From a virus, in the IMG/VR virus record IMGVR_UViG_3300025917_000486, positions 1 through 29,605 of that record: DNA of 29,605 nt, one strand, 5' to 3'. Below are positions 10,505-29,601 of this stretch, one piece after another (position 1 is the first letter of the stretch; each line of letters opens with the position of its first letter). The translations under genes were made by a program, and so were the position numbers. The notes under the pieces were generated by a model that worked only from the letters and a program-made list of their open reading frames with translations, had not been told where the DNA came from and ran no database searches.

Positions 10505-10537
10505 AGTCTACCACAACGATGTTGACGGCCTATGGCC
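10505..10537 (-). promoter_or_regulatory. Promoter with palindromic element for the 10481-7607 operon
   Basis: On the minus strand, GGCCATAGGCC (10527-10537) lies 16 nt before the -10 box TAGACT (complement of 10505-10510), which carries an extended TTGTGG. The intervening GTCAAC matches two sister promoters. Confidence 0.6.
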
Positions 10538-10578
10538 TGAGCTTCACTCTGGCATATGCCGATCAGGTACGGGCATGG

Positions 10579-10614
10579 GCGACCCCCGGCTGCATCGCAT
10601 CTGCCGGGGGTCGC
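10579..10614 (-). terminator. Hairpin terminator
   Basis: Perfect 12-bp stem GCGACCCCCGGC / GCCGGGGGTCGC with a 12-nt loop, 24 nt after the stop at 10639. No T-run follows. Confidence 0.6.
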
Positions 10615-10638
10615 CTTGGGTGCCGAGTATGACCGCGC

Positions 10639-11037
10639 TCAGTCCAGGAAGTCCTGGCCGATGGTCTTCAGCGCCTGCGTGACACCCTCGTCCGCCATGA
10701 ACTGGTCGTGCTCGCCCTGCTGGATCTTGCCGTTGTCCAGGGCCCACTGAACGAGGCGGATCTGGACCTGCAAGGGGTCCGGCTGGAGCGGGCGGAACGC
10801 GGCGGGAAAGCTGCGTCGCCCCACCTTCCCGCTGGCGTGCAGCAGCGAGCCGAGGACCGTGCTCGCTCCGCTGTACCGCTCGATGACGCCCCGGCGGAAG
10901 ATGTTGACCATCTCGGGCGACTCGCCGTCCAGCTCACCCTTGCCGACGCTGTTCTCGAAGGCATCCCTCTCCTGCTGGAGTACCCAGACCTCCTCGAACG
11001 CCAGGTCGACGGCCTCGATGAACGTGTTCACCTGCAT
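10639..11037 (-). CDS. Hypothetical protein, paralog family member A, 132 aa
   Basis: A 132-residue protein starting at ATG 11037 with GAGGGGAGAAGGAG upstream. It is one of three related neighbours. It shares TFIEAVDLAFEEVW with the next gene's TFEQGLDKAFEIAW, VLGSLLHASGKV with VLGSLLLLAGKI, and LVQWALDNGKIQQGEHDQF with LMGWARRNGKVTEAEYAGW. The protein is probably all-helical, with no membrane or catalytic motif. The C-terminal W-x2-x-x-GK(I/V) signature repeats in all three. Function unknown; local duplication followed by divergence is inferred. Confidence 0.7.
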   Translation of the reverse strand: MQVNTFIEAVDLAFEEVWVLQQERDAFENSVGKGELDGESPEMVNIFRRGVIERYSGASTVLGSLLHASGKVGRRSFPAAFRPLQPDPLQVQIRLVQWALDNGKIQQGEHDQFMADEGVTQALKTIGQDFLD

Positions 11038-11062
11038 GTCTCCTTCTCCCCTCTCTCGATTC

Positions 11063-11434
11063 CTACAGGAAAGCCGAGGCCGGGACACCACTGATGGCGC
11101 ACCATCCGGCGTACTCGGCTTCGGTGACCTTGCCGTTGCGCCGGGCCCAGCCCATGAGGCTGTTCGCGGTCGCGGCGGATCCGTCGATCCAGCCCTGGGT
11201 CTGACCCTCGTCCTCGGTCGAGGGCGCGAAGACCGGGATCTTCCCGGCCAGCAGCAGGAGGGAACCCAGAACGTCGAGGGCTCCGATGAACGCCTCGTGG
11301 GAGGAGGCCACGCGGAGCTGGTCGATGACGCTCTCCGGGTCGCTGCCCACCTCTTCGCGGATCGCCTCGGACCTCTGACTGTGCCGCCATGCGATCTCGA
11401 ACGCCTTGTCCAGACCCTGCTCGAACGTTGCCAT
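11063..11434 (-). CDS. Hypothetical protein, paralog family member B, 123 aa
   Basis: A 123-residue protein whose ATG 11434 shares one base with the stop of a 12-residue upstream reading frame. It begins MATFEQGLDKAFEIAWRHSQ and ends with the family signature LMGWARRNGKVTEAEYAGW. It is most similar to member A, which lies 25 nt downstream. No catalytic motif is seen and the fold is likely helical. Its own ribosome-binding site is weak (AAGGTCTG), so translation probably depends on coupling to the short frame upstream. Confidence 0.7.
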   Translation of the reverse strand: MATFEQGLDKAFEIAWRHSQRSEAIREEVGSDPESVIDQLRVASSHEAFIGALDVLGSLLLLAGKIPVFAPSTEDEGQTQGWIDGSAATANSLMGWARRNGKVTEAEYAGWCAISGVPASAFL

Positions 11435-11472
11435 CAGACCTTGGCCCTCACCTTCTGCACATCACTGTGCAT
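11434..11472 (-). CDS. Putative 12-aa leader peptide
   Basis: A 13-codon frame encoding MHSDVQKVRAKV, starting at ATG 11472 behind an excellent GGAAAGGGG site and ending in TGATG, so its stop overlaps the next gene's start. The arrangement looks like a translated leader that couples or regulates translation of paralog B. It could instead be an incidental start followed by reinitiation. Confidence 0.5.
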   Translation of the reverse strand: MHSDVQKVRAKV

Positions 11473-11514
11473 GATTTCCCCTTTCCGAGGGTATCTCTTG
11501 CATCTCAAATGCAA

Positions 11515-11545
11515 GTTATCACAGGGGAGTTGACGGCCTGGGCCA
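11515..11545 (-). promoter_or_regulatory. Promoter with GGCCCAGGCC element for leader and paralog A/B genes
   Basis: On the minus strand, GGCCCAGGCC (complement of 11535-11544) is followed by GTCAAC, then TGTGATAACTT, a likely extended -10. The layout matches the promoters at 10505 and 13521. Confidence 0.6.
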
Positions 11546-11600
11546 AAAACCTCTGCGTCTTGCAGACAATCCGGCGAATCTGTATACCTGACCGGGAAAA

Positions 11601-11636
11601 GCACGACGCCCCGCCGGTTCAGACGGGGCGTCGTGC
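11601..11636 (-). terminator. Strong rho-independent terminator
   Basis: Perfect 13-bp stem GCACGACGCCCCG / CGGGGCGTCGTGC with a 10-nt loop, 5 nt after the stop at 11642. It is followed on the minus strand by TTTT, the best T-run among the leftward hairpins. Confidence 0.75.
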
Positions 11637-11641
11637 TCGGT

Positions 11642-11971
11642 TCACTCGGACGGGTAAGAGTCTCCACCCTGCGGAGCATCCGGGTCAGCCATCCACGCGT
11701 CGTACTGGACGGTGGAGATCAGGCCCTCGTCGACCCCCCACTTCATGAGGTCGATGCTGGCCTCCCTGCGACTGGGGCGCGGCGCCACCCCGTCCAGGGT
11801 GAGCGCGTCACGAAGCTCGTCCATCGCGTACTCCATGACGGCTTCCTGGTCCTTCAGCTTCCCGGCCTCGCTCGGAACGACCTGGGCAATCCGCCAGACC
11901 CGGTCCAGCTCGATACCCTCGGCCCAGGCCCGGGTCCGTGCGGCACGGACCCGGGCGAGAATGTCCCCCAT
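11642..11971 (-). CDS. Hypothetical protein, paralog family member C, 109 aa
   Basis: A 109-residue helical protein starting at ATG 11971, sharing one base with the Nudix gene stop. Its C-terminal SIDLMKWGVDEGLISTVQYDAWMAD matches the LMxWAxxxGK(I/V)xxxEYxxW signature of paralogs A and B at aligned positions. The N-terminal halves are less alike: here Arg/Ala-rich MGDILARVRAARTRAWAEG. No catalytic motif. It is the last gene of the operon that begins at 13411 and ends at the terminator at 11601-11636. Confidence 0.7.
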   Translation of the reverse strand: MGDILARVRAARTRAWAEGIELDRVWRIAQVVPSEAGKLKDQEAVMEYAMDELRDALTLDGVAPRPSRREASIDLMKWGVDEGLISTVQYDAWMADPDAPQGGDSYPSE

Positions 11972-12423
11972 CAGCCGAAGTACGGCTGGCCGGTGTGGTA
12001 CGCGATGACCAGGTTCTCGACCGGCGCGAAGAGCGGCGTCGGCAGGTTGTCGATCGGGTGCCAGGTCCAGCCGAGGCACTTCTCCGGCTCCATCAGCTTC
12101 GGGTCGCCGGAGACCCAGTGCGACACCATGCCGATGTCGGCGTAGTGCTTGCCCTGGTCCGTGTACTCGCGCAGGTTCGTGACGCAGAGGAACCGGGGGC
12201 GGGTGACGTTGATCTCGTCGCCGCACTCCTCCTCCAGCTCGCTCAGGCCGGTCTCCTCGTAGGTCTCACCGAACTCCTGGTGACCGCCCGGCGTGCCCCA
12301 CTGGCCCTCACCGTGGGAGCCACGGCGCTGACCGAGCAGGATGTGCAGCCTGCCCTCGAACTGCCGTACCACCAGCAGGCTGATGCCCACCTTCGGGCGC
12401 GGAGCGCTCTCGTCTCGCTTCAC
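11971..12423 (-). CDS. Nudix hydrolase
   Basis: A 150-residue Nudix-family pyrophosphohydrolase, the class that cleaves nucleoside diphosphates linked to another moiety. The box runs from G47 (GHQEFGE with E53) to S61-E62-L63-E64-E65-E66-C67-G68. It keeps the spacing G-x5-E-x7-x-E-x-x-E-E-x-G and the metal-binding glutamates, but the usual arginine of the REUxEE core is serine at 61. Activity is still likely, since the glutamates bind the metal. GTG 12423 follows GGAGGAGAAG. Small size and phage context suggest nucleotide clean-up, for example of modified or damaged dNTPs, but the substrate is not deducible. Confidence 0.88.
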   Translation of the reverse strand: MKRDESAPRPKVGISLLVVRQFEGRLHILLGQRRGSHGEGQWGTPGGHQEFGETYEETGLSELEEECGDEINVTRPRFLCVTNLREYTDQGKHYADIGMVSHWVSGDPKLMEPEKCLGWTWHPIDNLPTPLFAPVENLVIAYHTGQPYFG

Positions 12424-12437
12424 GTTCTTCTCCTCCG

Positions 12438-12647
12438 TCAGGCGAGCCGCATGCCGGGCTCGTCGGGCACCTGGACCATCGCGGTGGCAACCAGGGCGTT
12501 CATGACCGCCAGCATCTGGCGGTCCTTGTTGTCGAGCTTGTCCGGGTTCTTCTCGGCCAGCTCGTTCAGGAAGTCGGCGTGCTCCCTGGCCCTGCCCAGG
12601 TAGGCGCGGGCCAGGTCGCCACGGTCCGGCTCGTCGATGCGTCGCAC
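12438..12647 (-). CDS. Hypothetical protein, 69 aa
   Basis: A 69-residue protein starting at GTG 12647 with GAGGAGA upstream, 8 nt after the previous stop. It is helical: RRIDEPDRGDLARAYLGRAREHADFLNEL, then NKDRQMLAVMNALVATAMVQV. The fold may be a small helix-turn-helix-like or bundle protein, but no family is recognised. A much longer frame covering its upstream neighbour is shadow. Confidence 0.65.
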   Translation of the reverse strand: MRRIDEPDRGDLARAYLGRAREHADFLNELAEKNPDKLDNKDRQMLAVMNALVATAMVQVPDEPGMRLA

Positions 12648-12655
12648 GGCTCTCC

Positions 12656-13411
12656 TCAGATCCGGAAGACGGTGGACTTGCGGACGTTGACCGAGTTCGT
12701 GGTCGCCGCCTGCTGGGCGGATCCGCCCGGGACGAACGGCACCTGAGCGGCCCGCGACTGGGCGCCGAGCAGGTCCATGAGGAACGTGTTCAGGTCGCAG
12801 TGAAGGTGGTTGGTCACGTCGTAGCCCCGGCGGTTGACCGCCAGCCCACCCGTGATCGTCCAGTCCATCGACCCGGAGCCGCCGCCGACGAACCCGAAGG
12901 TGAGGGCGACCGTGCTCTCGTCGCCGTCCTCGTCGGTGTCGGTGACGCTCAGGATGTACTGCTTGCCGTCGAGCGAGATCGAGGCCGTGACGACCGTGGT
13001 CGTCTTGGTGCTGGCGCCGCGCATGCTGCGCAGGCACTCGGCCACCGTCGAGGGCAGGTGCTCCTCGTTCTCCACGGTGCGCATCTCGGGCAGCTTGGCC
13101 TTCTTGGCGCCCGCCGGGACGAAGTCCTTGCGGCCGTTGTCCGGGTCCTTGTAGATGGAGACGTACATGTCCCATCCGCTGGCCAGGGGCTTGGCCTTGC
13201 CGTCGATGAAGAGGTGGGACTTCTCCCAGCGCCACTTCCGGCCGTCGAGGCGGAACTTGATGGTCATCTTCGTCCGCTCGCCCAGGTGGGTGAGCAGGAT
13301 CTTGCCGTAGCCGTTGCGCTCGACGATGGGCTCGACGCCCGTCTTGTCGAGCAGGAAGGCGTACGGCTCGTGGACGACCTCGGGCATGTTGTCGATGCTG
13401 AGCGTGGTCAA
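12656..13411 (-). CDS. Hypothetical protein, 251 aa, TTG start
   Basis: A 251-residue protein. TTG 13411 is chosen because GGAG lies 6 nt upstream (CGGAGAAGAGC); a downstream ATG at MPEVVHEP is the alternative. The sequence is beta-rich with Asp/Gly turns (MTIKFRLDGRKWRWEKSHLFIDGK; SVTDTDEDGDESTVALTFGFVGGGSG). It ends in a polar tail and has no signal peptide or catalytic motif. Strand-rich composition would fit a structural or binding protein. It opens the operon ending at paralog C and follows a promoter at 13521-13545. Confidence 0.65.
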   Translation of the reverse strand: MTTLSIDNMPEVVHEPYAFLLDKTGVEPIVERNGYGKILLTHLGERTKMTIKFRLDGRKWRWEKSHLFIDGKAKPLASGWDMYVSIYKDPDNGRKDFVPAGAKKAKLPEMRTVENEEHLPSTVAECLRSMRGASTKTTTVVTASISLDGKQYILSVTDTDEDGDESTVALTFGFVGGGSGSMDWTITGGLAVNRRGYDVTNHLHCDLNTFLMDLLGAQSRAAQVPFVPGGSAQQAATTNSVNVRKSTVFRI

Positions 13412-13449
13412 GCTCTTCTCCGTCCGATTCCGATGTGAGATGGGCCGAA

Positions 13450-13499
13450 AGCCCCGGGGTGCCGTTGTTCTTGGCCGGAGCGCGGGCGCCCCCGGGGCT
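13450..13499 (-). terminator. Long-loop GC hairpin in the leader of the 251-aa gene
   Basis: Stem AGCCCCGGGG / CCCCGGGGCT (10 bp) with a 30-nt loop that can fold further. It lies between promoter 13521-13545 and TTG 13411, so it would be in that transcript's leader. Confidence 0.45.
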
Positions 13500-13520
13500 C
13501 CTCCCTTTCTCCTGAAAACT

Positions 13521-13545
13521 ACTCTACCACAAGGGAGTTGAGGAT
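13521..13545 (-). promoter_or_regulatory. Promoter downstream of the toxin gene
   Basis: On the minus strand GCCCAGATCCTCAAC precedes TTGTGGTAGAGT, with -10 TAGAGT (complement of 13521-13526). It shares the TCAAC-10 nt-box spacing with the promoters at 10505 and 11515. The palindromic half is degraded (GCCCAGATCC). Confidence 0.55.
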
Positions 13546-13553
13546 CTGGGCAG

Positions 13554-13859
13554 TCAGTCGATGTGGCGGCCGATGTACTCGACCTCGATGACCTTGACCT
13601 CTTCACCCTGTTCGCCGTACGCCCACAGGATGCGCTCGCCGCCGGGGCCGATGCGGATGTACGAGATCCACAGGTCGTCGCGGTTTCCGAAGCGGGGCTC
13701 GGGCTTCATCCGGTGCGTGTTCAGACCGGGATGGGCCGGATTGTCGGCCAGCTTCTCCAGCGCGGACTGGACCTGTTTCAACTTGCCCCGGTCGCCGGAC
13801 TTGCGGATCTTCTTGATCCCCTTCTCGGCGGCCGGGGTGATCTCCAGCGTGAACCTCAT
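13554..13859 (-). CDS. Probable toxin, RelE/ParE-like
   Basis: A 101-residue basic protein with a RelE/ParE-type pattern: an N-terminal strand (MRFTLEITPAAEKGIKKI), two helices rich in Lys/Arg (VQSALEKLADNP), then the antiparallel strands DDLWISYIRIGPGGERILWAYGEQGEEVKVIEV. The ISYIRIxxxxERILWAY and VKVIEV pieces are the recurrent signature strands of this toxin superfamily, which includes mRNA interferases and gyrase inhibitors. A four-base ATGA overlap joins it to the upstream 106-aa gene, the usual antitoxin-first order. Calling it a toxin is inference from fold pattern and context; it could be an inactive relative. Confidence 0.65.
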   Translation of the reverse strand: MRFTLEITPAAEKGIKKIRKSGDRGKLKQVQSALEKLADNPAHPGLNTHRMKPEPRFGNRDDLWISYIRIGPGGERILWAYGEQGEEVKVIEVEYIGRHID

Positions 13860-14176
13860 GCCGCGTCCCCCCAGATCAGCGCACTCAGGTCAGCCGGGGT
13901 GGAAATCCGGCGCCCCCAGTCCCCCGCACTGCGGGACGCGCGGTTGTCCTGCACGGCCTGCGCCGCCTCGACCGCGCCGCGCTGGCCGAACGCCTCCTCC
14001 GGAGACAGCACCGGCCGAACAGCGGTCAGGTCCAGCAGTTCGCGCTCACTGATCACGACCGAGGGCGTCAGCGTGATCACGCCGTCCCCGTCGACCGTCA
14101 CCGCGTACTGCCGGTCCTGAACCACCCGGTTCAGGTTGATCCGGCCGCGCGAGTCCGGCGACACCAGGATGACCAT
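13856..14176 (-). CDS. Probable antitoxin, AbrB/SpoVT-like
   Basis: A 106-residue protein starting at ATG 14176 behind GGGAGGGAGAG. The first 45 residues (MVILVSPDSRGRINLNRVV, then QYAVTVDGDGVITLTPSVV) fit the swapped-hairpin AbrB/SpoVT DNA-binding fold. A longer C-terminal tail (EAFGQRGAVEAAQAVQDNRAS) could bind the downstream toxin. The gene overlaps the toxin by four bases. Two inverted repeats lie in its leader, which would suit autoregulation by the antitoxin. Family identity is by pattern only. Confidence 0.6.
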   Translation of the reverse strand: MVILVSPDSRGRINLNRVVQDRQYAVTVDGDGVITLTPSVVISERELLDLTAVRPVLSPEEAFGQRGAVEAAQAVQDNRASRSAGDWGRRISTPADLSALIWGDAA

Positions 14177-14193
14177 GGTCTCTCCCTCCCACT

Positions 14194-14222
14194 GGTGGGC
14201 CGCGCCCACCTCCTATGAGGAG
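14194..14222 (-). promoter_or_regulatory. Inverted repeats in the antitoxin leader (candidate operator)
   Basis: Two inverted repeats lie between promoter and start: GGTGGGC / GCCCACC (14194-14210, 3-nt loop) and CTCCT-ATG-AGGAG (14210-14222). They could be a DNA operator for an autoregulating antitoxin or an RNA hairpin. Confidence 0.45.
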
Positions 14223-14250
14223 CCTATTCTGAACTTGGCTGCCATTTCAA
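14221..14250 (-). promoter_or_regulatory. Promoter of the toxin-antitoxin operon
   Basis: On the minus strand TTGAAA (complement of 14245-14250) is 18 bp upstream of TAGGCT (complement of 14221-14226). The spacer contains TGGCAGCCA, a variant of the recurrent promoter palindrome. Confidence 0.55.
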
Positions 14251-14255
14251 GAAGT

Positions 14256-14630
14256 TCAGACGGCGATGCCCACCGACGCGACCACCGAGCCCGCGTACTC
14301 GTCGGTGACCGTGAACTCCCGGCTGAGCACGGCTGCGATCCGCTTGAGGAGCGCCCGCTGCTCGAACTCCATCGACTCGTTGTGGATCCGGCACTGCGGG
14401 CACGTCGGGGGGAGGCCGCGCTTCAGACCCTCCATGATCTTCGCGCCGAGCGTCCTGCTGCGGCATCCCTCGCAGTCGTAGTGGTGCCGGTGAACCGAGG
14501 TCGTCACCGTCAGGCGGTCGGCCGACGGGTATACGTCCAGGTGGACATGCTCATTGCTGCGGACCCCCTCCGTGTACAGCAGATCCTTCACCGCGTTCAC
14601 CTTGCGGTCCGCCGCGTCCATCGCTCCCAT
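14256..14630 (-). CDS. Zinc-ribbon-like protein, 124 aa
   Basis: A 124-residue protein with two CxxC pairs, CEGC (in HHYDCEGCRSRTLG) and CPQC (in PPTCPQCRIHNES), about 25 residues apart with nearby histidines. That spacing fits a zinc ribbon or treble-clef-type site. The N-terminal half is an alpha/beta stretch (RLTVTTSVHRHHYD). Start ATG 14630 is used; ATG 14621 is possible. The GGAGAGG ribosome-binding site lies inside the 3' arm of a hairpin (14639-14672), so translation may be regulated. A nucleic-acid-binding or adapter role is inferred. Confidence 0.7.
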   Translation of the reverse strand: MGAMDAADRKVNAVKDLLYTEGVRSNEHVHLDVYPSADRLTVTTSVHRHHYDCEGCRSRTLGAKIMEGLKRGLPPTCPQCRIHNESMEFEQRALLKRIAAVLSREFTVTDEYAGSVVASVGIAV

Positions 14631-14638
14631 GATCTCAT

Positions 14639-14672
14639 CCTCTCCGTCGGGGCCCATTCCCCAACGGAGAGG
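14639..14672 (-). promoter_or_regulatory. Leader hairpin enclosing the ribosome-binding site
   Basis: CCTCTCCGT-GGGG / CCCC-ACGGAGAGG stem with one C-A mismatch and a short loop. On the minus strand the GGAGAGG ribosome-binding site of the gene at 14256-14630 is in the 3' arm, so folding would hide it. Confidence 0.5.
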
Positions 14673-14701
14673 ATATCAGCGGATCTTGATGGCCTGGGCC
14701 G
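14670..14701 (-). promoter_or_regulatory. Promoter with GGCCCAGGCC element for the zinc-ribbon gene
   Basis: On the minus strand CGGCCCAGGCCATCAAG (from 14701) leads into TGATATCC, a probable -10. It sits between the stop at 14704 and the leader hairpin and matches the element at 11535. Confidence 0.5.
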
Positions 14702-14703
14702 AA

Positions 14704-14979
14704 TCAGGAGGACCAGGGCCACGCGTCAGTCTCGGTGCGCACCAGGTACTGCCGGTTCGCGTTCACCGTCACACCGGGATATGCCGCCTCCATCGACGCC
14801 TTCCAGGCGCCCATCGCCGCCTCGGCTGCCGCGTCCTCGTTCTCCGTCACCGTCGAGCCGAAGCCGTTCGTGAGCGGGAAGGTCTGCTCGATGCCGGTGT
14901 CCACCGGGTTCTCGGGGTCCGTGTCGTTGAACAGCCACAGCCGGTACGTGACGGCGTAGGCGCCGGTCGGTATTGCCAT
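14704..14979 (-). CDS. Hypothetical protein, 91 aa
   Basis: A 91-residue protein, MAIPTGAYAVTYRLWLFND, starting at ATG 14979 with GGAGG 6 nt upstream; an in-frame TTG two codons earlier is possible. It looks beta-rich at the N-terminus and helical in the middle (EDAAAEAAMGAWKASMEAAYPGVTV). No known family. It is the rightmost gene of the leftward arm and lies against the divergent control region. A TAGGGT box upstream of the start may be its promoter. Confidence 0.65.
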   Translation of the reverse strand: MAIPTGAYAVTYRLWLFNDTDPENPVDTGIEQTFPLTNGFGSTVTENEDAAAEAAMGAWKASMEAAYPGVTVNANRQYLVRTETDAWPWSS

Positions 14980-17120: not shown

Positions 17121-18482
17121 GTGGGTGAAGTACGCGCCATTGCGGGCGGAACCATGGTCGACCCGCACGCGGAGACGGCCGTTCTGGGGGAACTGCTCGT
17201 CTCCGACGGCCACCCGCTCGACTGTCGTGACGAAGTCACCGACATCCTGCGGGACGCCGGGCCGGAAGTGTTCCACGACCCGCTGAACCGCAAGGTGTAC
17301 GAGGCGTTCCTGTCCTGCTTCATCGACGGCGGCCACACCGACCCGGTGGCGGTCGTCGGCGCCCTGCGGCAGGAGGGGGAGCTGACCGCCGAGCTGTTCG
17401 ACCACGTGCACAGCCTGCCGTCGAAGGCCGGGAACCTCGCGGCCTCGCACGGCGGGGCGCGGAGCCTGCTCGACCTGTACCGGCGGCGCATGCTGCACAA
17501 GGTGCTGGTGGAGTCCTCCGGCCGGGTCCAGGCGGGCGGCGGGTCCTACGGCGAGATCGCCGGGGAGGTCTCGGTGGTGGTGTCGGAGGTCATCGACACC
17601 TCCACGAAGGTGGAGACCACCTTCTCCGCATCGCAGGTCTCCGAGGCTGCCCTGGGGCACATCCTCCACGGGCGGACCATGGAGAAGGGCATCCCGATGG
17701 GGCTGCACGACATCGACGAACTGACCGGCGGCATGCGGCTGGGCCAGTTCATCGTGATCGCCGGGCGGCCCGGCCACGGCAAGACCACCGTCGGCGCCCA
17801 GGTCGCGCGGAACGTGGCGCACCAGGGGATGGCCACGGAGATCTTCTCGTTGGAGATGCCGAAGGAGGAGCTGGGCCAGCGCAACGCGTCGGCCGAGACC
17901 GGCATCCCCTTCGAGGACATCCGTGACGGCCGGGTGGACGCCGAGGCGATCGAGCGACTGATCGAGTACGACGCCAGCCAGGCCGACTACCCGATGACGG
18001 TCGACGACGACCCGGGCCAGACGCTCGGAGAGATCGCGCTGAAGGTCCGCAAGTCGGCCCGGGAGAAGGGTGCGAAGGTCTTCGTGATCGACTACCTCCA
18101 GCTCGTGAAGCCGGACAAGCCGACCGGCAACCCGACGGTGGACGTGGCGATCGTCTCGGAAGGGCTGCGCAGGCTGGCCCGTACGCTCCGGGTCATCATC
18201 ATCGCGCTGGCTCAGCTCAACCGTGAGTCGGCCGGTCGCGACGACGGCAAGCCGAAGCTGACCGACCTGCGCCAGTCCGGCCAGATCGAGCAGGACGCGA
18301 ACGTGGTCATCCTGGTCCACCTGCCGTTCAAGATCGATCCCGACACGGCGCGCGGCAAGGAGGCCGACCTGATCCTCGCGAAGAACCGAGGGGGCAAGAC
18401 GGCCGAGCGGGTGATGCTGTTCGACGGCGCCCACAGCCGGTTCCTCAACCCGTCCGACATGCTCGCCGGGATCTCGTCGTGA
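17121..18482 (+). CDS. dnaB-like: DnaB-type replicative DNA helicase
   Basis: A 453-residue hexameric-type replicative helicase, close to bacterial DnaB length. An N-terminal DnaB domain (about 14-120; HAETAVLGELLVSDG) precedes a linker helix (LLDLYRRRMLHKVL), then the RecA-like core. Walker A is GRPGHGKT (215-222). A conserved glutamate is in SLEMP (E245), Walker B is VFVIDYLQLV with D324, AQLNRES contributes Q365, and KNRGGKT (421-427) matches the DnaB arginine-finger motif. GTG 17121 follows AAGGAGAAC. It unwinds DNA at the fork with the downstream primase. Its stop overlaps the next start as GTGA. Confidence 0.95.
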   Translation: MGEVRAIAGGTMVDPHAETAVLGELLVSDGHPLDCRDEVTDILRDAGPEVFHDPLNRKVYEAFLSCFIDGGHTDPVAVVGALRQEGELTAELFDHVHSLPSKAGNLAASHGGARSLLDLYRRRMLHKVLVESSGRVQAGGGSYGEIAGEVSVVVSEVIDTSTKVETTFSASQVSEAALGHILHGRTMEKGIPMGLHDIDELTGGMRLGQFIVIAGRPGHGKTTVGAQVARNVAHQGMATEIFSLEMPKEELGQRNASAETGIPFEDIRDGRVDAEAIERLIEYDASQADYPMTVDDDPGQTLGEIALKVRKSAREKGAKVFVIDYLQLVKPDKPTGNPTVDVAIVSEGLRRLARTLRVIIIALAQLNRESAGRDDGKPKLTDLRQSGQIEQDANVVILVHLPFKIDPDTARGKEADLILAKNRGGKTAERVMLFDGAHSRFLNPSDMLAGISS

Positions 18483-19054: not shown

Positions 19055-19083
19055 TAGAAGTGGCCCAGGCCATGTAGTAGGCT
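19055..19083 (+). promoter_or_regulatory. Promoter P2 with TGGCCCAGGCCA operator
   Basis: TGGCCCAGGCCA (19061-19072) lies at the start of the 17-bp spacer before -10 TAGGCT (19078-19083). The -35 position (TAGAAG) is poor, which suggests dependence on, or repression by, a factor bound at the palindrome. Confidence 0.6.
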
Positions 19084-19732: not shown

Positions 19733-21259
19733 ATGGCACGAGGGTCAGGACTCAGGAACGTACTCGCGGCGCTGGACAGGAGCGGAAGTCGGGTCAAGCA
19801 GCACGGTGGGTACTACACCGCCCAGTGCCCGGCACACGAGGACCGGAACGCTTCCCTCAGCATCACCCAGGGCGAGAAGGGCGCGGTGCTCAACTGTCAC
19901 GCCCGGTGCGCCACCGACGACATCCGCATCGCGCTCGACCTCAACTGGCCCGACCTGTTCGACAACGGCGGCCAGATGGGGGACGAGGACCGTCAGCTCG
20001 CGGCCGACCTGTGGATGCCCTGCCAGAAGAACGGCTGCGGCGGCCACAAGTCGGCCGAGTACCGGTATTCGGACGAGAACGGGAACTTCCTCTACGCGGT
20101 CGCGCGGTGCTCGCGCAAGGGTGACGGCTGCCCGCAGCCGTTCGCCCAGTGGGTGCCGGACGCCAGCAAGAAGTTCGGTAAGAAGTGGGGTCTGCCCTCC
20201 TCGGTGCGCCGGGTGCTCTACAACCTGGCGAAGGTGATCGAGGCGGCGAAGGCCGGGCGCCGGATCTGGCTCATGGAGGGCGAGAAGGACGCCGACCGGA
20301 TGAGGCGGGACTTCCCCGATGAAGCGGTGACGACCATCGTCTCGGGTGCGGGCAAGTCGAAGTGGCGGCTGGAGTACGGCCGCTACTTCAAGGGCGCCTC
20401 CGAGGTGATCATCGTGGCCGACTGCGACCGCACCGGCCTGGAGTTCGCCGAGGAGGTGCACAAGCACCTGAGCAATGTGGTGACCAAGGTCAAGGTGGTG
20501 TGCTCGCCGCTCATGGCCGACGGCGCCGACTTCTCCGATCACCGTGATCACGGATTCGGTCTCGACGAGTTCGAGATCGTGCCCTTCACGCCGATCAAGA
20601 AGCGGCCCGAGATGGTGATCCTGGTCGAGGAGGAGCACCGCGAGAAGCCAGTGGTGTTCAGCGGCTTCAGTCAGGAGTCCGTCGAGCGCAGCCTGGTCGG
20701 ATCGATTCTGCGGTACGGCCACTCCTACGGGATCGCCGAGGTCGACATCCAGACCGACAGCCGCATGAACGTGATCATCAAGGCGGCTGCCCGGCTGGCC
20801 CGGCAGGAGAACGTGATCACGCCGGACATGGTGGCGGCCGAGGTTGAGGAGATGGGGGTAAGCACCTTCGAGAAGGTGCTGCCCTACGCCCTCGAACTGG
20901 AAGCGGTCGCCTTCGACGACACGACCAAGCCGCTCGTCGCAGCGCGCATCCTGCGGGAGCGCACCATGCGTCGGATGCTGGCGCTTGTCAGCCGGGCCAC
21001 CGAGTCGGCGGCCCAGGATGAGAAGAGGCCGCTGGATCAAATCCTTGCCGAGGTCGGCCGGACGGCGGAACGGATGAACGAGGAGTACGTCTCGCTGGAG
21101 CGCGAGTACTGCGAACCGGTCGGCGACGTGTTCACCGGGGACGTCCTCGAAGAGATCGTCATGATGGAAGAGATCGAGCAGGAGAAGACGAACGTCACCC
21201 CGATGCACCCGAAGAAGCAGGGTGTGACGTACCGGCCCAGGGCGGTCCAGGGAAGCTGA
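19733..21259 (+). CDS. DNA primase with CHC2-type zinc finger, TOPRIM and DnaB-N-like C-terminus
   Basis: A 508-residue primase. A CHC2-type zinc finger is formed by C32-x2-H35 (CPAH) and C55-x3-C59. A second Cys cluster (C97, C102, C126, C133) follows. The TOPRIM catalytic domain has E182 and E184 in MEGEKDA, and D230/D232 in ADCDRTG. It makes RNA primers for the DnaB-type helicase encoded upstream. The C-terminal part (about 312-450) resembles the N-terminal domain and linker helix of DnaB (ESVERSLVGSIL; ARILRERTMRRMLALV), as in bacterial DnaG, where this region binds the helicase. ATG 19733 follows AGAGAGG; the in-frame extension upstream has no better site. Confidence 0.92.
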   Translation: MARGSGLRNVLAALDRSGSRVKQHGGYYTAQCPAHEDRNASLSITQGEKGAVLNCHARCATDDIRIALDLNWPDLFDNGGQMGDEDRQLAADLWMPCQKNGCGGHKSAEYRYSDENGNFLYAVARCSRKGDGCPQPFAQWVPDASKKFGKKWGLPSSVRRVLYNLAKVIEAAKAGRRIWLMEGEKDADRMRRDFPDEAVTTIVSGAGKSKWRLEYGRYFKGASEVIIVADCDRTGLEFAEEVHKHLSNVVTKVKVVCSPLMADGADFSDHRDHGFGLDEFEIVPFTPIKKRPEMVILVEEEHREKPVVFSGFSQESVERSLVGSILRYGHSYGIAEVDIQTDSRMNVIIKAAARLARQENVITPDMVAAEVEEMGVSTFEKVLPYALELEAVAFDDTTKPLVAARILRERTMRRMLALVSRATESAAQDEKRPLDQILAEVGRTAERMNEEYVSLEREYCEPVGDVFTGDVLEEIVMMEEIEQEKTNVTPMHPKKQGVTYRPRAVQGS

Positions 21260-21284
21260 CATGGCCCAGGCCATCTGGTAATCT
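21256..21284 (+). promoter_or_regulatory. Promoter with operator in the spacer
   Basis: CTGACA (21256-21261), then a 17-bp spacer beginning with TGGCCCAGGCCA (21262-21273), then -10 TAATCT (21279-21284). This is the clearest promoter in the window. The -35 overlaps the last codons of primase. Confidence 0.75.
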
Positions 21285-25327: not shown

Positions 25328-25344
25328 TCCGCCCGACAACCGGA
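25317..25344 (+). other. Inter-tRNA hairpin
   Basis: Perfect 8-bp stem TCCGGTTG / CAACCGGA with a 12-nt loop between tRNA-Gln and tRNA-Asn. Confidence 0.4.
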
Positions 25345-25423
25345 ACAGTTGAGAAGCGCAGCAGAACAAGGTCGGTGCGCCGCGTGGTGCTAGGGATGAG
25401 GCCCACTACAATTTCAGATTCGA

Positions 25424-25496
25424 TCTCCTGTAGCTCAACCGGCAGAGCGCCGGATTGTTAATCCGGATGTTACTGGTTCAAGTCCAGTCAGGAGAG
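25424..25496 (+). tRNA. tRNA-Asn (GTT)
   Basis: Acceptor TCTCCTG/CAGGAGA, anticodon stem CCGGA/TCCGG with loop TTGTTAA (GTT), T-arm ACTGG-TTCAAGT-CCAGT, G discriminator. Confidence 0.94.
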
Positions 25497-25565
25497 CGTG
25501 TGCCGACGACACCATATCCTTCCGTGGTCTGAAAAACCCGGTCGGAATTACAGTCGGTGGTAAAG

Positions 25566-25587
25566 GACCGCATTGCGCAGTGCGGTC
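25566..25587 (+). other. Hairpin before the unusual tRNA-like gene
   Basis: GACCGCA / TGCGGTC, 7 bp perfect with an 8-nt loop, ending right before 25588. Confidence 0.35.
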
Positions 25588-25685
25588 GCGCGTGTAAGGG
25601 AACTCCGAGTCAGAGCCCGGCGAACAGGGCACTCGGAAAGGCCCTGTGGAGACGTCCAGTGCAGGTTCGATCCCTGCCTCGCGCA
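25588..25685 (+). ncRNA. Non-canonical type II tRNA-like RNA
   Basis: A clear T-arm (GCAGG-TTCGATC-CCTGC, 25661-25677) is followed by CTCGCGC plus A, which pairs with 5' GCGCGTG at 25588 with one T-T mismatch. A small variable-type hairpin TGGA-GACG-TCCA precedes the T-arm. CAGGGC/GCCCTG can act as anticodon stem, but its loop ACTCGGAAAG is 10 nt and the D arm is abnormal. It looks like a degenerate or unusual Ser-type tRNA. No anticodon is called with confidence. Confidence 0.45.
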
Positions 25686-25744
25686 CTTGGGAACAACCGT
25701 GCCTGAACAGCTTGGAGGGGTGATGGACATCGTCACCGGATTCA

Positions 25745-25773
25745 CCTAGGTCCGCGAAATTCGCGGCCCTAGG
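25745..25773 (+). promoter_or_regulatory. Hairpin overlapping the ribosome-binding site
   Basis: CCTAGG (25745-25750) pairs with CCTAGG (25768-25773) around a CCGCGA/TCGCGG stem. The AGGAGG site (25771-25776) of the next gene overlaps the 3' arm, so folding could block translation. It may also end upstream transcripts. Confidence 0.5.
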
Positions 25774-25786
25774 AGGATGAATTCCG

Positions 25787-26182
25787 ATGGGCAAGACGAC
25801 GCATCACACGCCCGGAAAGTTCGACCAGCGCGACTGGCCTGACGGCTACAGGATGTACTGGCGCAAGCGGCCGATCACTCCGGTGCGCGAGCACGAGGTC
25901 TACGACCTGCGCTACAGCGCTGCGGAACTCCGTGACGCCGAGAGGCAGGGCCGCAGGCCGCAGCCCCGGAAGGTGAGGCGTACCGCTCGCTGGTGGACCT
26001 ACACCGGGGCCTGGACCCCCAGTTCCAGCCGGACCTACTGGGCTGGTAAGCACGAGCGCGCCAACCGGCGCTACGTGAAGAGCAAGCTGGAAGCCGGGCG
26101 CCGCACGAAGGGCGAACTCGAACGTCGGCTGTACGAGAAGGCCGAGAAGGTTCCTCGCCGGATGCTGTACGACATCTGGTGA
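25787..26182 (+). CDS. Basic hypothetical protein between tRNAs, 131 aa
   Basis: A 131-residue strongly basic protein starting at ATG 25787 with AGGAGG upstream. It is rich in Arg, Lys, Trp and Tyr (WRKRPITPVREHEVYDLRYSAAEL, RRTARWWTYTGAW, ERANRRYVKSKLEAGRRTKGELERRL). That composition fits an RNA- or DNA-binding protein, but no domain is recognised. It lies inside the tRNA array, so a link to tRNA handling is conceivable, though only its position suggests it. A hairpin covers part of the ribosome-binding site. Confidence 0.7.
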   Translation: MGKTTHHTPGKFDQRDWPDGYRMYWRKRPITPVREHEVYDLRYSAAELRDAERQGRRPQPRKVRRTARWWTYTGAWTPSSSRTYWAGKHERANRRYVKSKLEAGRRTKGELERRLYEKAEKVPRRMLYDIW

Positions 26183-26191
26183 GAGAGGAAA

Positions 26192-26264
26192 GCTCCTGTA
26201 GCTCAGGGGATAGAGCGCCGGATTCCGGATCCGGATGTCGCAGGTTCAATTCCTGCCAGGAGCA
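26192..26264 (+). tRNA. tRNA-Arg (CCG)
   Basis: Acceptor GCTCCTG/CAGGAGC, anticodon stem CCGGA/TCCGG with loop TTCCGGA (CCG), T-arm GCAGG-TTCAATT-CCTGC, A discriminator. Last clear tRNA of the array. Confidence 0.93.
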
Positions 26265-26408
26265 CGGCGGTGCCTGCGGAAATCCTTACTCCGCTTGGGC
26301 AGGGTGAGGCCAACTCCAGTGATCTGCGTGGCAGCTCTCCTGGTGAAAGATCCCCTGCGGTCGTAGTAGGCGACCCCCGCATTCTCGTATCGGAGAGGAA
26401 AAGGAAAA

Positions 26409-26726
26409 GTGGACCACGAGATCGACGAGATCACAGTGATTGAGCTGCCGAAGCGGACCGGCATGTCATCCGGCTGGCCCCAGCAATACCGGATCATGAT
26501 CACCCCTTCGGCGCCCGGCCAGACGGTGCCCAGCCTCCCCTTCCTGCACAAGGGTGACGGATTCACCACGCTGGAGGGGCAGACGTACTGGGTCGAGAGC
26601 GCCAAGCAGGTGCCCGTGCAGAAGGGGTACGTCTACTGGACGTGGGTCTACACGGCTACGCGCGACACGTCGGACGACCCGGAGCCGTGGGACGACACGC
26701 CTTTCGACTCGCAGTTCGGTCGGTGA
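26409..26726 (+). CDS. Hypothetical protein, 105 aa
   Basis: A 105-residue protein starting at GTG 26409 with AAAAGGAAAA upstream. It appears beta-rich, with aromatic residues (YRIMITPSAPGQTVPSLPFLHKG, GYVYWTWVYTATRDT) and an acidic tail. No catalytic motif. Its stop overlaps the next start as GTGA. The 140 bases before it, after tRNA-Arg, hold only weak hairpins and no further tRNA that I can fold. Confidence 0.65.
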   Translation: MDHEIDEITVIELPKRTGMSSGWPQQYRIMITPSAPGQTVPSLPFLHKGDGFTTLEGQTYWVESAKQVPVQKGYVYWTWVYTATRDTSDDPEPWDDTPFDSQFGR

Positions 26727-27250
26727 GCGGCGTGGCGGAGTACAAGGCAGGGGTCATCAAGCACGCTGGGGCCTGGTTCAAGCTGCGCGTGAACGACGAC
26801 GGTGACTGGCTGACCGAGGTGGACGGCCGCGACCTGAAGCAGCCCACCAGGGCCAAGCTGGTCGCCGATATCGACCGCGTGATGCGCGTGAAGAAGAAGG
26901 CCGTCAACATCCCCATCACGGTGGTCGAGAGCAAGAACAACGGCTACCTCAAGGTGAAGCACGGCGTCGTCACCGGCATCCACAGCGGGACCGGAAACCT
27001 GATGATCGCCTGGGACAGCGTGTCGGGTGGCGGCAACGGTCAGCTCACCGTCAGCACCACGGGCTACAGCAGCGACGAGGTGCTGCGCCGCCTGACGCCC
27101 AGCGAGGAGCAGGAGCTGGCCCGAGCGGTCAAGGAGGCGTACGACGCGGGCGAGTACATGCGGAACTACGTCAACCGCCTGCATGTCTACAAGGGCACCA
27201 AGGGTCTCGCCGACCAGGTTCAGGCCGAGCTGGAGAAGGGTGAGAAGTGA
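26723..27250 (+). CDS. Hypothetical protein, 175 aa
   Basis: A 175-residue protein starting at GTG 26723, overlapping the previous stop by four bases; GTG 26732 is a weaker alternative. It mixes beta-strands (WLTEVDGRDLKQPTRAKLV, VNIPITVVESKNNGYLKVKHG) with a helical C-terminus (SEEQELARAVKEAYDAGEYMRNYVNRL). It resembles no family I recognise. Spacing supports operon expression with its neighbours. Confidence 0.65.
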   Translation: MSGVAEYKAGVIKHAGAWFKLRVNDDGDWLTEVDGRDLKQPTRAKLVADIDRVMRVKKKAVNIPITVVESKNNGYLKVKHGVVTGIHSGTGNLMIAWDSVSGGGNGQLTVSTTGYSSDEVLRRLTPSEEQELARAVKEAYDAGEYMRNYVNRLHVYKGTKGLADQVQAELEKGEK

Positions 27251-27537
27251 TGACCTGGCAGGAGAAGAACCTGACGCGGGTCGAGGGCGCGACCGAGTTC
27301 CGCGACATCGTCATGACGTTGGACCGGGAGGGGTACGGCAACGGCCGCATCTACGTGCGCCGGGTCGGCACCGATCAGGTCTACCGGATCATCCCCCGCC
27401 ATACCGACCCGTTCCAGAAGATCACCTTCAGCGAGCTTTTCCTGTCCAACCATCCGCCGATCTACATGGAGGACTTCGCTCAGGCCATGATCGACGACAA
27501 GGACCGCAGCTTCCTCCTTGAGGTCTTCACCCGGTAG
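27250..27537 (+). CDS. Hypothetical protein, 95 aa
   Basis: A 95-residue protein starting at ATG 27250 (GTG 27247 is the alternative), sharing one base with the previous stop. It has a beta-like GRIYVRRVGTDQVYRIIPRH segment and a helical C-terminus with acidic residues (YMEDFAQAMIDDKDRSFLLEVF). No known motif. Operon member of unknown function. Confidence 0.65.
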   Translation: MTWQEKNLTRVEGATEFRDIVMTLDREGYGNGRIYVRRVGTDQVYRIIPRHTDPFQKITFSELFLSNHPPIYMEDFAQAMIDDKDRSFLLEVFTR

Positions 27538-27546
27538 GGAGGGGTC

Positions 27547-27771
27547 ATGTACGGCGAGTACTACGACGGAAGGCGCAAGCACCGGCCGATCAAGCGGCAG
27601 CCGCCGGGTCCCGAGGACATGCCGGACGAGGCGACGGCCGCACTGATCCGAGAGGCGATCGGCCGGTACCCGAAGGCGACGGCCGAAGAAGTGCGGATCT
27701 TCGTGAAGGAACTGGATCGCGGCCCCGAGTTCGACGTGAAGGCGATTCGCGCGGTCATGCACTTCGGGTAG
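27547..27771 (+). CDS. Hypothetical protein, 74 aa
   Basis: A 74-residue protein starting at ATG 27547 with GGGAGGGG upstream, 9 nt after the previous stop. It starts with a basic tyrosine-rich segment (MYGEYYDGRRKHRPIKRQPPGPEDMP), followed by two helices (EATAALIREAIGRYPKATAEEVRIFVKEL). It may bind nucleic acid or protein; no family recognised. It is the last gene before the terminator hairpin at 27817-27850. Confidence 0.65.
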   Translation: MYGEYYDGRRKHRPIKRQPPGPEDMPDEATAALIREAIGRYPKATAEEVRIFVKELDRGPEFDVKAIRAVMHFG

Positions 27772-27772
27772 T

Positions 27773-27800
27773 AGTCAACTCAGCTACAGTTCGGTACAGT
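27773..27800 (+). promoter_or_regulatory. Possible promoter before the 27817 hairpin
   Basis: TACAGT occurs twice, 10 bp apart (27785-27790 and 27795-27800), downstream of GTCAAC, a word also found at leftward promoters. Weak evidence. Confidence 0.3.
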
Positions 27801-27816
27801 TGAAGAATCGCAACCC

Positions 27817-27850
27817 ACGGAACCCCCGGTCTGGCGATCGGGGGTTCCGT
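27817..27850 (+). terminator. Hairpin terminator
   Basis: Perfect 12-bp stem ACGGAACCCCCG / CGGGGGTTCCGT with a 10-nt loop, before the ribosome-binding site of the next gene. It follows the possible promoter at 27773-27800, as at 21301. Confidence 0.6.
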
Positions 27851-27871
27851 CATCGGACGAGGAGAGAAGCG

Positions 27872-28084
27872 ATGGGCACGTACGACGGCGGGCAGGCGCC
27901 CGTGGACAGCTCGACCTGGAAGCAGCCGACCAGCGGCAAGGGCGGCGAGACGCACCCGGCCCCGGCGCCGATGGTGCGCGACGAGACCACCGGCACCATG
28001 AAGCGGGCTGTCACCCCGGACCCGTACGCGAACGGCGGCAACGGCCACACCCTGCGCAACTTCGGCCACGGCGGTGGCCAGTGA
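27872..28084 (+). CDS. Small hydrophilic protein, 70 aa
   Basis: A 70-residue protein starting at ATG 27872 with GAGGAGAG upstream. It is rich in Gly, Thr, Pro and Asn, low in hydrophobic residues (MGTYDGGQAPVDSSTWKQPTSG) and probably disordered. It ends in NFGHGGGQ. Its stop overlaps the next start (GTGA). Function unknown. Confidence 0.6.
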   Translation: MGTYDGGQAPVDSSTWKQPTSGKGGETHPAPAPMVRDETTGTMKRAVTPDPYANGGNGHTLRNFGHGGGQ

Positions 28085-28512
28085 CGACGAAGATCGAGAG
28101 CGAGTACGACGTCGCCACCATCCTCGGATCGCTCGACACCGCCCGTTGGGGCGAGGTGCGTGAAGCCATCCGCAAGGGCGGTACCGGCTACGCGTTCGGG
28201 CCCGACCTGGACTTCGGCGAGGCGCCCGAAGGCGGCGACAGCGAGGCCGAGTACATCTTCAACGAGGCCACCGAGATCGCCGGGACGAACCGGCTCATGC
28301 GTCAGGCCGCGCGCAGCCTGCACGGCAACCTGGACGAGGCGCTGCGCCGGATCAAGTCGGCCCAGCGCAACATCCAGGAGCTGTGCGACCTCGGCGACAT
28401 CGAGTTCCTGGAGGGCAACGGTGACGTCGAGCAGTTCCTGAAGGACGCCGCCCGTGCGCTGCGCGCCGCCCAGGAGATGAAGCCCACCGACGAGACGGGG
28501 GAGATGAAGTGA
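28081..28512 (+). CDS. Hypothetical protein, 143 aa
   Basis: A 143-residue acidic protein starting at GTG 28081, overlapping the previous stop by four bases. It looks helical throughout (EAEYIFNEATEIAGTNRLMRQAARSL, LDEALRRIKSAQRNIQELCDLGD), with a charged tail. A coiled-coil or helical-bundle role is plausible. It overlaps the next gene by four bases; no known motif. Confidence 0.65.
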   Translation: MTTKIESEYDVATILGSLDTARWGEVREAIRKGGTGYAFGPDLDFGEAPEGGDSEAEYIFNEATEIAGTNRLMRQAARSLHGNLDEALRRIKSAQRNIQELCDLGDIEFLEGNGDVEQFLKDAARALRAAQEMKPTDETGEMK

Positions 28513-28751
28513 CCGGATCCGGCTGGGACAGCCACGGCCATGTCAGCGACCGTGGCCGGTCCGGAACGGCATGCCGGAACCGAAAGCAGCACTTCGGCCA
28601 CTGGGTGGTGACGGTCAGGAAGGCGAACTACTCCGCCTTCAACGGCTACCACCGCACCCCCAGCGACTACTCCGAGATCCGGTGCACGGCATGCCCGACG
28701 CGCTGGCGCTCGAAGGCCGCCTACGTGGACCAGCTTCCCGACGAGAAGTGA
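28509..28751 (+). CDS. Hypothetical protein with CxxC motif, 80 aa
   Basis: An 80-residue protein starting at GTG 28509 with a four-base overlap. After a polar start it has HWVVTVRKANYSAFNGYHRTPSDYSEIRCTACPTRWRSKAAYV, combining a CxxC pair with His, Trp and basic residues. I associate this HW-V-YSAF-TPSDYS-CxxC-WRSKAAYV pattern with small proteins of actinophages, function unknown. Zinc or nucleic-acid binding is likely. Confidence 0.7.
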   Translation: MTGSGWDSHGHVSDRGRSGTACRNRKQHFGHWVVTVRKANYSAFNGYHRTPSDYSEIRCTACPTRWRSKAAYVDQLPDEK

Positions 28752-28777
28752 CCCCACCACGGGCCGAGAAAACAGGG

Positions 28778-28783
28778 TAGATT
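28778..28783 (+). promoter_or_regulatory. Possible promoter of the cold-shock gene
   Basis: -10 box TAGATT in CAGGGTAGATTTCC, 36 nt upstream of ATG 28820. No convincing -35. Confidence 0.35.
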
Positions 28784-28819
28784 TCCTCCGGCAAGACAGC
28801 AGAGAGACCGGAGAGAAAC

Positions 28820-29026
28820 ATGCCTGCTGGCACCGTGAAGTGGTTCAACGCCGAAAAGGGCTTCGGCTTCATCGCCCAGGACGGCGGTGGCCCCGACGTC
28901 TTCGTGCACTACTCGCAGATCAACGCCCAGGGCTACCGCAGCCTGGAGGAGGGTCAGCGGGTGGTCTTCGAGACCCAGCAGGGCAAGAAGGGGATCGAGG
29001 CGCAGGGCGTCACGGTCACTTCGTGA
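28820..29026 (+). CDS. csp-like: Cold-shock domain protein (CspA-like)
   Basis: A 68-residue protein of the normal cold-shock length: [27 protein letters not shown]1 is KGFGFI (13-18) and RNP2 is VFVHY (27-31), the two single-stranded nucleic-acid-binding motifs. It acts as an RNA chaperone or ssDNA binder in the cytoplasm; in a phage it could assist late gene expression or replication. ATG 28820 follows CGGAGAG. Its stop overlaps the deaminase start by four bases, so the two are coupled. Confidence 0.95.
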
Positions 29027-29535
29027 GAACGGCGGAGCGCCCCGACTGGGACGCCTGGGCCCTCGGCATCGCCGAGGCCGTCTCCCTCCGGGGTGACTGC
29101 ACCAGGCGACAGGTCGGGGCCGTTCTGCTGGATGAGGCTCATCGGGTCATCGGCTGCGGCTACAACGGCGGCCCGCGCGGTGGCGAGAGCTGCCTGGCCG
29201 GTGAGTGCCCGCGCGGCAGGCACTACGAGATCTCGCGGTGCCCTGGGCCGCCACACCCGCCGGACTGCAAGTGCCGGGTTTTCACCGGCCAGTGCGCCTG
29301 CGGCGAGATGTGGCCCTGCACCTGGTCGGTGGCCCCCGGGAGTTCGTACGACACCGGGCCCGGCACGTGCATCGCGGTGCACGCCGAGATGAACGCCCTG
29401 CTGGATGTCTCGGATCGCAGCCGCCTGGTCGGTGCCACGATGTACATCACCGAGCAGCCCTGCGCAGGGTGCTTGAAGATCTTGAAGAACACCGAGATCA
29501 AAACGTTCGTCTGGCCGGGCGGCCGGATCGGCTGA
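29023..29535 (+). CDS. dCMP deaminase-like protein with Cys-rich insertion
   Basis: A 170-residue zinc-dependent deaminase starting at GTG 29023. [11 protein letters not shown] starts the fold; the catalytic HAE is H120-A-E122, and PCAGC (C147, C150) completes the zinc site. [14 protein letters not shown] is typical of dCMP deaminases, which convert dCMP to dUMP for thymidylate supply. Between residues 52 and 113 lies a long loop with eight cysteines (C57, C62, C73, C82, C84, C91, C93, C99), far more than the usual second zinc site. dCMP is the most likely substrate, but a tRNA or modified-base deaminase cannot be excluded. It follows the cold-shock gene in one operon. Confidence 0.88.
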
Positions 29536-29540
29536 GTGAC

Positions 29541-29564
29541 GGGCCTCTCCTGACGGAGGGGCCC
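29541..29564 (+). terminator. Terminator of the cold-shock/deaminase operon
   Basis: 10-bp stem GGGCCTCTCC / GGAGGGGCCC (one T-G) with a TGAC loop, 5 nt after the stop at 29535. It is followed by GTTCTCG. Confidence 0.65.
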
Positions 29565-29580
29565 GTTCTCGTATCCTCAA

Positions 29581-29601
29581 TGGCCTGGGCCATGTTAGAA
29601 T
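29581..29601 (+). promoter_or_regulatory. Promoter with TGGCCTGGGCCA at the right edge
   Basis: TGGCCTGGGCCA (29581-29592) lies three bases before -10 TAGAAT (29596-29601). The gene it drives is outside the window. Confidence 0.6.

Follow-up and report, generated by a model that had tools for sequence, protein, structure and literature searches.

The stretch of DNA analysed here, referred to as the window, is the entire 29,605-base IMG/VR virus record IMGVR_UViG_3300025917_000486, and the element of interest is a short palindrome that recurs in the promoters of its genes. Over bases 1–25,000, the part that was searched, the window is 99.4% identical to Streptomyces phage Frankenweenie (OQ921725, 200,048 bp), aligning in one piece from base 72. 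The positions of genes in the window were taken from the Frankenweenie record, where each position is the window position plus 109943, an offset that is also valid at the last site, at 29581. Six other phage records have long matches to the window, and 11 more match only at transfer RNA (tRNA) genes. The announcement of Frankenweenie places it in cluster BM and states that it 'possesses no integrase or repressor' (PMC10652959).

The clearest example of the element in the window is seen in the promoter of gene 204 (21256–21284, forward strand; gene start 21340), where CTGACA (21256–21261) and TAATCT (21279–21284) are separated by a 17-base spacer, the first 12 bases of which are the palindrome TGGCCCAGGCCA (21262–21273). 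The same 12-mer lies at 19061–19072, again on the forward strand, upstream of gene 202 (start 19133) with the −10-like TAGGCT at 19078–19083, and TGGCCTGGGCCA lies at 29581–29592 (forward) upstream of gene 231, which starts past the end of the window, with the −10-like TAGAAT at 29596–29601. An earlier note on this DNA had put the rightward copies in the spacer between −35 and −10; this describes the site at 21262, while those at 19061 and 29581 are situated just upstream of the −10-like box. On the reverse strand the element is found near −35, as the same note had it, both in the promoter of gene 189 (TGGCCCAGGCCG, 11534–11545; start 11434; −10-like TAACTT at 11513–11518) and in that of gene 196 (CGGCCCAGGCCA, 14690–14701; start 14630; −10-like TATCCT at 14670–14675). 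The sixth of the main sites first listed, at 10527–10537 upstream of the leftward gene 187 (start 10481), is present in the sequence as are the others, but it is a degenerate, intermediate copy, GGCCATAGGCC, with a three-base centre (GGCC-TAT-GGCC, or GGCC-ATA-GGCC on the other strand). The orthologous promoter has a 12-mer with one mismatch, CCGCCTAGGCCG, in Kela and in contig G004, and degenerate forms in contig G001 and Satis.

As first written, the word is not specific to promoters. The loose form GGCCNNGGCC has 12 exact matches in the window, of which five are intergenic and seven genic (six in coding sequences and one in a tRNA gene), and with only 13 of 60 copies intergenic in Frankenweenie, the other 47 being genic, it was discarded as the motif. 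Sorting the Frankenweenie copies by their centres separates the two populations: 6/6 words with a TA centre and 6/9 with CA/TG are intergenic, against 1/45 for all other centres. All 12 of these intergenic sites have a pyrimidine (Y) before and a purine (R) after the word, and the strict word was defined from this as YGGCCYRGGCCR. Single-base variants extend it at one position, those with A at −4 being intergenic in 68/82 cases and those with C or T at −4 in 0/36, as pooled over seven related genomes with orthologous sites counted repeatedly. Variants with T at −3 are intergenic in 3/15. Across the seven genomes the strict word is YGGCC-YR-GGCCR, with A tolerated at −4 of one half, and the full motif is YG(G/A)CC-YR-GG(C/T)CR. 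G is kept nearly always at −5, G or A is found at −4, C is present at −3 in the strict sites and there is no preference at −7. In the window the refined word YGRCCYRGGYCR has six matches, whereas 100 shuffled versions had 0.43 on average and never more than 2; five are the promoter sites described above, at 11534, 14690, 19061, 21262 and 29581, and the sixth, at 18008, is inside a gene. Most sites outside the window have the TA centre.

The Y/R rule was read from Frankenweenie and counted afterwards in the other sequences, namely Kela, Satis (50001–186702) and the IMG/VR contigs G001, G004, G005 and G006. The genes of Frankenweenie were taken from its record and those of the other sequences were predicted with a simple script; run on Frankenweenie, this script reproduced 343 of the 351 annotated 3′ ends and 290 of the starts. 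The strict word is intergenic in 12/13 copies in Frankenweenie, 10/12 in Kela, 10/10 in Satis, 20/20 in G005, 21/22 in G006, 10/11 in G004 and 10/11 in G001, or 93 of 99 altogether, orthologous sites being counted repeatedly. The remaining NGGCCNNGGCCN words are intergenic in 1/47, 4/32, 0/21, 1/29, 2/30, 4/33 and 1/35 copies respectively (13/227 pooled), with intergenic DNA making up 0.105–0.205 of the seven sequences. Two of the genic exceptions are errors of the gene caller, since the site at 176811 in Kela lies between annotated genes 329 and 330 and that at 967 in G006 is the site before gp109, a gene discussed below. When A is allowed at −4 Frankenweenie has 26 matches, 20 of them intergenic, so that there are some 20 sites in this genome rather than the six first noted. 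One match inside an annotated Frankenweenie gene, gene 290 (165063–165074), has a Satis counterpart (154104) that is intergenic and 27 nucleotides (nt) from a start, and because of this the start of gene 290 is probably annotated too early. The relaxed operator has 30 intergenic matches in G005 and 35 in G006, the larger relatives (260 kb and 251 kb) with the most such matches, and 19 or 20 in each of the other five sequences; the regulon seems to have grown along with the genome in these two. The form YGRCCTAGGYCR occurs 15 times in Frankenweenie and has no match in the records of Gilson, KimJongPhill, ZL12 or pMLP1.

Chance occurrence of GC-rich words would account for the loose form, which is common and mostly genic, and it is here that the four 'degraded' copies of the earlier note belong. 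The copy at 13536 is not kept in Kela, the one at 14236 belongs to another conserved sequence, and neither 1946 nor 19005 matches the motif. For the strict word chance is refuted as an explanation, with 12 copies seen in Frankenweenie intergenic DNA where 0.11 are expected from composition, and with the copies kept at orthologous promoters; as an account of the element as a whole it has a negligible probability. The strict 12-mer lies before the orthologues of genes 114, 145, 163, 202 and 204 in all seven genomes while the flanks diverge; for gene 123 it is found in five of the seven, the remainder having A at −4, for gene 339 in all five genomes with an orthologue and for gene 164 in 5/7. Among the other window sites, that of gene 231 is kept in 6/7, with A at −4 in the seventh (G006), and that of gene 196 in both other genomes that have an orthologue, Satis and G001 (3/3 counting Frankenweenie). 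The centres interchange between CA/TG and TA at genes 163, 204 (TA in G005 and G006) and 231, and the operator of gene 202 has CA in some genomes and TG in others. Separate regulators for CA- and TA-centred sites were rejected because of these swaps; since the word is conserved at orthologous promoters whichever of the centres it has, a single symmetric binder for all the sites is likely and is the simplest reading.

The sites are also positioned with respect to the core promoter. Among 90 non-redundant sites TANNNT hexamers gather at the upstream edge of the operator, with 22 at offsets −12/−11 against a mean of 0.68 per offset, and form a second cluster at +7 to +14, while YTGAC adjoins the operator upstream, with 7 at −12 against a mean of 0.31. 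A −10-like hexamer in either of two fixed registers, chosen from the histogram of this 90-site survey, is present at 65/108 sites compared with 235/4514 motif-free intergenic control places upstream of genes; the 108 sites are those that lie outside called genes, no further than 150 nt from a start and away from the ends of records, and whose centre is not CG. The suggestion that a single repressor or activator serves intergenic promoters throughout the phage is supported by the intergenic bias, the core-promoter overlap and the orthologous conservation taken together, and of the two a repressor is favoured. An operator whose place in the promoter varies while it continues to overlap it would suit a repressor. 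Activators usually need a fixed distance to the promoter, and here the site may be near −35, in the spacer or as far down as the start region, with the −10-like hexamer upstream of the operator or against it in 33 + 2 of the 90 sites. Activation by the same protein, whether at every promoter or at a part of them and chiefly where the site is near −35 and there is no good −35 hexamer, would fit the leftward sites of the window, where the element replaces the −35 hexamer, and the 9 of 90 sites in the near-−35 class. Given these positions, and since the structurally known relatives of the candidate regulator described below, DasR and NagR, are called repressors (PMC4918961, PMC4333415), activation appears unlikely. 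The strength of the sites also looks balanced. In Frankenweenie, G005 and G006, orthologues included, the full TGGCCTAGGCCA form is seen in only 5/40 TA sites without A at −4, whereas both outer bases are T/A in 20/29 of those with one A at −4 and in 8/13 CA-centred sites without A.

The candidate regulator is gp109, a GntR/HutC protein encoded at 71777–72511 of Frankenweenie. Its N-terminal winged helix-turn-helix (HTH) passes the Pfam cut-off for GntR (30.3 bits, cut-off 27) and its C-terminal effector domain that for UTRA (54.8 bits, cut-off 23.8). With the models for HutC and PhnF the alignment, made with the L011 homologue of gp109, covers almost the whole length, at scores that fall well short of the equivalog cut-offs, and the best relatives of solved structure are DasR (E 5e-10) and YvoA/NagR (E 1e-8). 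In 11/11 genomes the operator form CGGCCTAGGCCA is found 22–23 nt ahead of the gp109 start codon. NagR on GTGGTCTAGACCAC reads G−5 with Arg38 and G−4 with Arg48, and its wing Gly69 touches G−7 (PMC4333415); in HutC regulators, according to a comparative study, an arginine at HTH position 28 prefers G/C at bases 8/17 (PMC4494728). On our reading this HTH position would be Arg38 and these bases ±5. Arg34 and Arg44 of gp109 align with Arg38 and Arg48 of NagR and are present in 11/11 genomes, and YGRCCYRGGYCR shares its length and centre with the NagR-type operator TGGTCTAGACCA, although we infer its link to gp109 itself. Twenty phage records match gp109; seven, of this group, do so over the full length with at least 80% identity, ZL12 (two records) and pMLP1 are distant, and the rest are partial or weak. 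Many short palindromes lie near the ZL12 and pMLP1 homologues, among which none could be singled out as an operator. Taken together it is very likely that gp109 is the protein that binds the operators and, given that it binds, quite likely that it represses.

Several observations weigh against this assignment. In the alignment gp109 has a proline at the place of the NagR wing glycine, the phage sites have C at −3 where the NagR site has T, and the A that is common at −4 would be unexpected if Arg44 read G−4 as strictly as its counterpart in NagR. No diverged gp109 was found that would allow an analysis of covariation: the eight loci given by a profile scan of viral contigs all have at least 66% identity with the first row, and there is hardly any variation in the recognition helix. 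The AlphaFold model of gp109 is poor, with a mean predicted local distance difference test (pLDDT) of 50.5 and a predicted template-modelling score (pTM) of 0.34, and although Foldseek ranked DasR first with this model, the TM score was 0.22; the family argument leans on sequence for this reason. Among the sites, 20/90 have no −10-like hexamer in the classes used and no counterpart of the gene 189 operator was seen at the sole orthologue found (G001, 44% identical). The gp109 gene is itself outside the window, and other HTH proteins have the operator before their own genes, gp145 in 7/7 genomes and gp164 in 5/7, so that a self-site does not single out gp109. These self-sites, and the annotation of several HTH genes in the phage, would be consistent with gp145, gp164, gp240 or gp243 as the binder and gp109 merely as one of its targets. 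All Pfam matches of gp145 and gp243 are, however, below the curated cut-offs, gp164 (135 residues scanned, the last 20 missing) has no Pfam match and gp240 has only a Cro/C1-type match, at the cut-off, whereas the length of the palindrome, its spacing and its GG/CC pairs agree with the known operator of GntR/HutC regulators. In G005 and G006, moreover, the site stays with gene 163 and not gene 164. Another of these proteins as the binder is accordingly considered improbable. A sigma factor was also rejected, since gp243, whose Kela counterpart (gene 224) is called an RNA polymerase sigma factor, has only weak HTH_31-type matches in Pfam, as scanned with the Frankenweenie copy.

The system most like that proposed for gp109 is formed by DasR of Streptomyces coelicolor and NagR/YvoA of Bacillus subtilis, GntR/HutC repressors with dre-sites and the same pair of domains. 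Shared with them are the 12-bp palindromic frame, the GG at −5/−4, the two arginines in the same places and the many sites under one regulator (PMC4333415, PMC4918961), and natural NagR sites are imperfect palindromes as are those of the phage (PMC4333415). The phage system differs in being phage-borne and directed at phage promoters, in the wing residue and in its sites, which lack the T at −3 of TGGTCTAGACCA, allow A at −4 and have no preference at −7. The effector pocket differs too. By eye gp109 appeared to have the R-x-R of a DasR-like phosphosugar pocket (Arg142 and Arg144 of DasR; PMC4918961), but alignment ruled this out: Arg132 of gp109 aligns with Arg142 and Asn134 with Arg144. As the second phosphate arginine is replaced by asparagine, an amino-sugar phosphate does not seem to be supported as the ligand. 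Since DasR is a global regulator in Streptomyces, of the same family and with palindromic sites sharing the GG pair (PMC4918961), the phage might instead plug into the host network through DasR or a relative binding its sites. All the strict sites, however, have C at −3 and not the T of the NagR/DasR-type palindrome, the phage encodes its own regulator with a self-site, and no relative of gp109 was recovered among the 57 stretches given by searching 84,980 species genomes of bacteria and archaea for its short peptides, a scan that reaches close relatives only. A host regulator as the binder would seem very improbable.

Dispersed operators under one phage repressor are already known, as are GntR/HutC operators. 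In mycobacteriophage L5 and other cluster A phages many dispersed sites are bound by one phage-encoded repressor (PMC6550527). Those stoperators are asymmetric, oriented with transcription, mostly off promoters and found in temperate phages, unlike the sites described here, which are palindromic, overlap promoter-like hexamers in the 65/108 cases given above and belong to a phage without an annotated integrase. Among mobile elements of actinomycetes, the GntR-like repressors KorSA (from pSAM2) and SCO3932 represent GntR-family regulation on a Streptomyces mobile element, with binding to the regulator's own promoter and a few others, differing in the small number of targets and, for SCO3932, in a motif, AC[TC]T[AG]TT[GC][TG][GT]ACG, that is not this palindrome (PMC8584621). 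The Streptomyces phage satellite MulchRoom also has a GntR-like HTH protein in its lysogeny module, with an integrase beside it and no operator set in the part of the description consulted (PMC10690885). ZL12, like MulchRoom a Streptomyces phage-like element, has an annotated GntR regulator but, as noted above, not the word. The Streptomyces phage phiC31 has dispersed palindromic repressor sites, its conserved inverted repeats, although it is temperate and its repressor is different from gp109; a literature search on these repeats gave nothing among the matches listed. A GntR/HutC regulon spread across an apparently virulent phage was not found in the open-licence literature among the matches listed, which does not establish its absence from print.

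Two further features of the window and one outside it may be described. The TCAAC/TCAAG reported to follow the leftward sites is present, but as a separate promoter element: TCAA[CG]-N(6-9)-TG-N-TA is found at 10525, 11533, 13541 and 14689 in the leftward promoters of genes 187, 189, 193 and 196, and is intergenic in 4/4 copies in Frankenweenie, 4/4 in Kela, 2/3 in Satis and 3/5 in G005. As it occurs also without the operator it was rejected as a part of it and probably belongs to a class of leftward promoters. TGGC-N-GCCA, a possible relaxed form of the operator, is intergenic in 5/9 cases, its copy at 14236 falling in the separate conserved sequence already mentioned. In the region at 14180–14260, upstream of gene 195 and beside the RelE-like gene 194, the sequence around TGGCAGCCAAGTT, in which the 14236 copy lies, is conserved in Kela, G004 and G001 along with the −10-like box TAGGCT, and is perhaps the operator of a toxin–antitoxin pair. 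Elsewhere in Frankenweenie, gene 79 (55351–57186), a Cas4-type exonuclease noted as 'exonuclease and intron', has 1836 nt compared with 795 nt in Kela, the difference being an inserted element.

Overall it is likely that the element is the operator of gp109 acting as an autoregulated, phage-wide GntR/HutC repressor. In the mechanism proposed, gp109 would bind the 12-bp palindrome YG(G/A)CC-YR-GG(C/T)CR as a dimer, with one winged helix-turn-helix per half, and is predicted to recognise the operator forms CGGCCTAGGCCA, TGGCCCAGGCCA and TGACCTAGGCCA alike. In about 20 promoters the palindrome is found within the −35/−10 spacer, abutting the −10 on its downstream side or near the −35, and since it overlaps the promoter, bound gp109 would block RNA polymerase. 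Its own promoter has the same site, so that gp109 would limit its own amount. The outcome would be that a single autoregulated repressor holds down or times a set of genes in a phage with no annotated repressor, and we infer a role for gp109 in that timing. A more speculative extension, which we think doubtful though worth setting out, is that a captured DasR-like ligand-sensing repressor has become a genome-wide switch in this group of large, apparently virulent Streptomyces phages. A host small molecule sensed by UTRA would then release some 20 to 35 promoters, and the phage might read the metabolic or developmental state of its host and pause, for example in a carrier or spore-borne state, with neither an integrase nor a classical immunity repressor.

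If gp109 binds as proposed, a phage cluster with a member described as repressor-free would have a genome-wide regulon under a protein from a family of metabolite regulators. The analysis names a candidate regulator, defines an operator exactly and points to about 20 promoters as its targets in phages whose genes mostly lack known function, and the part that a ligand-sensing repressor plays in an apparently virulent phage would become directly testable in S. lividans.

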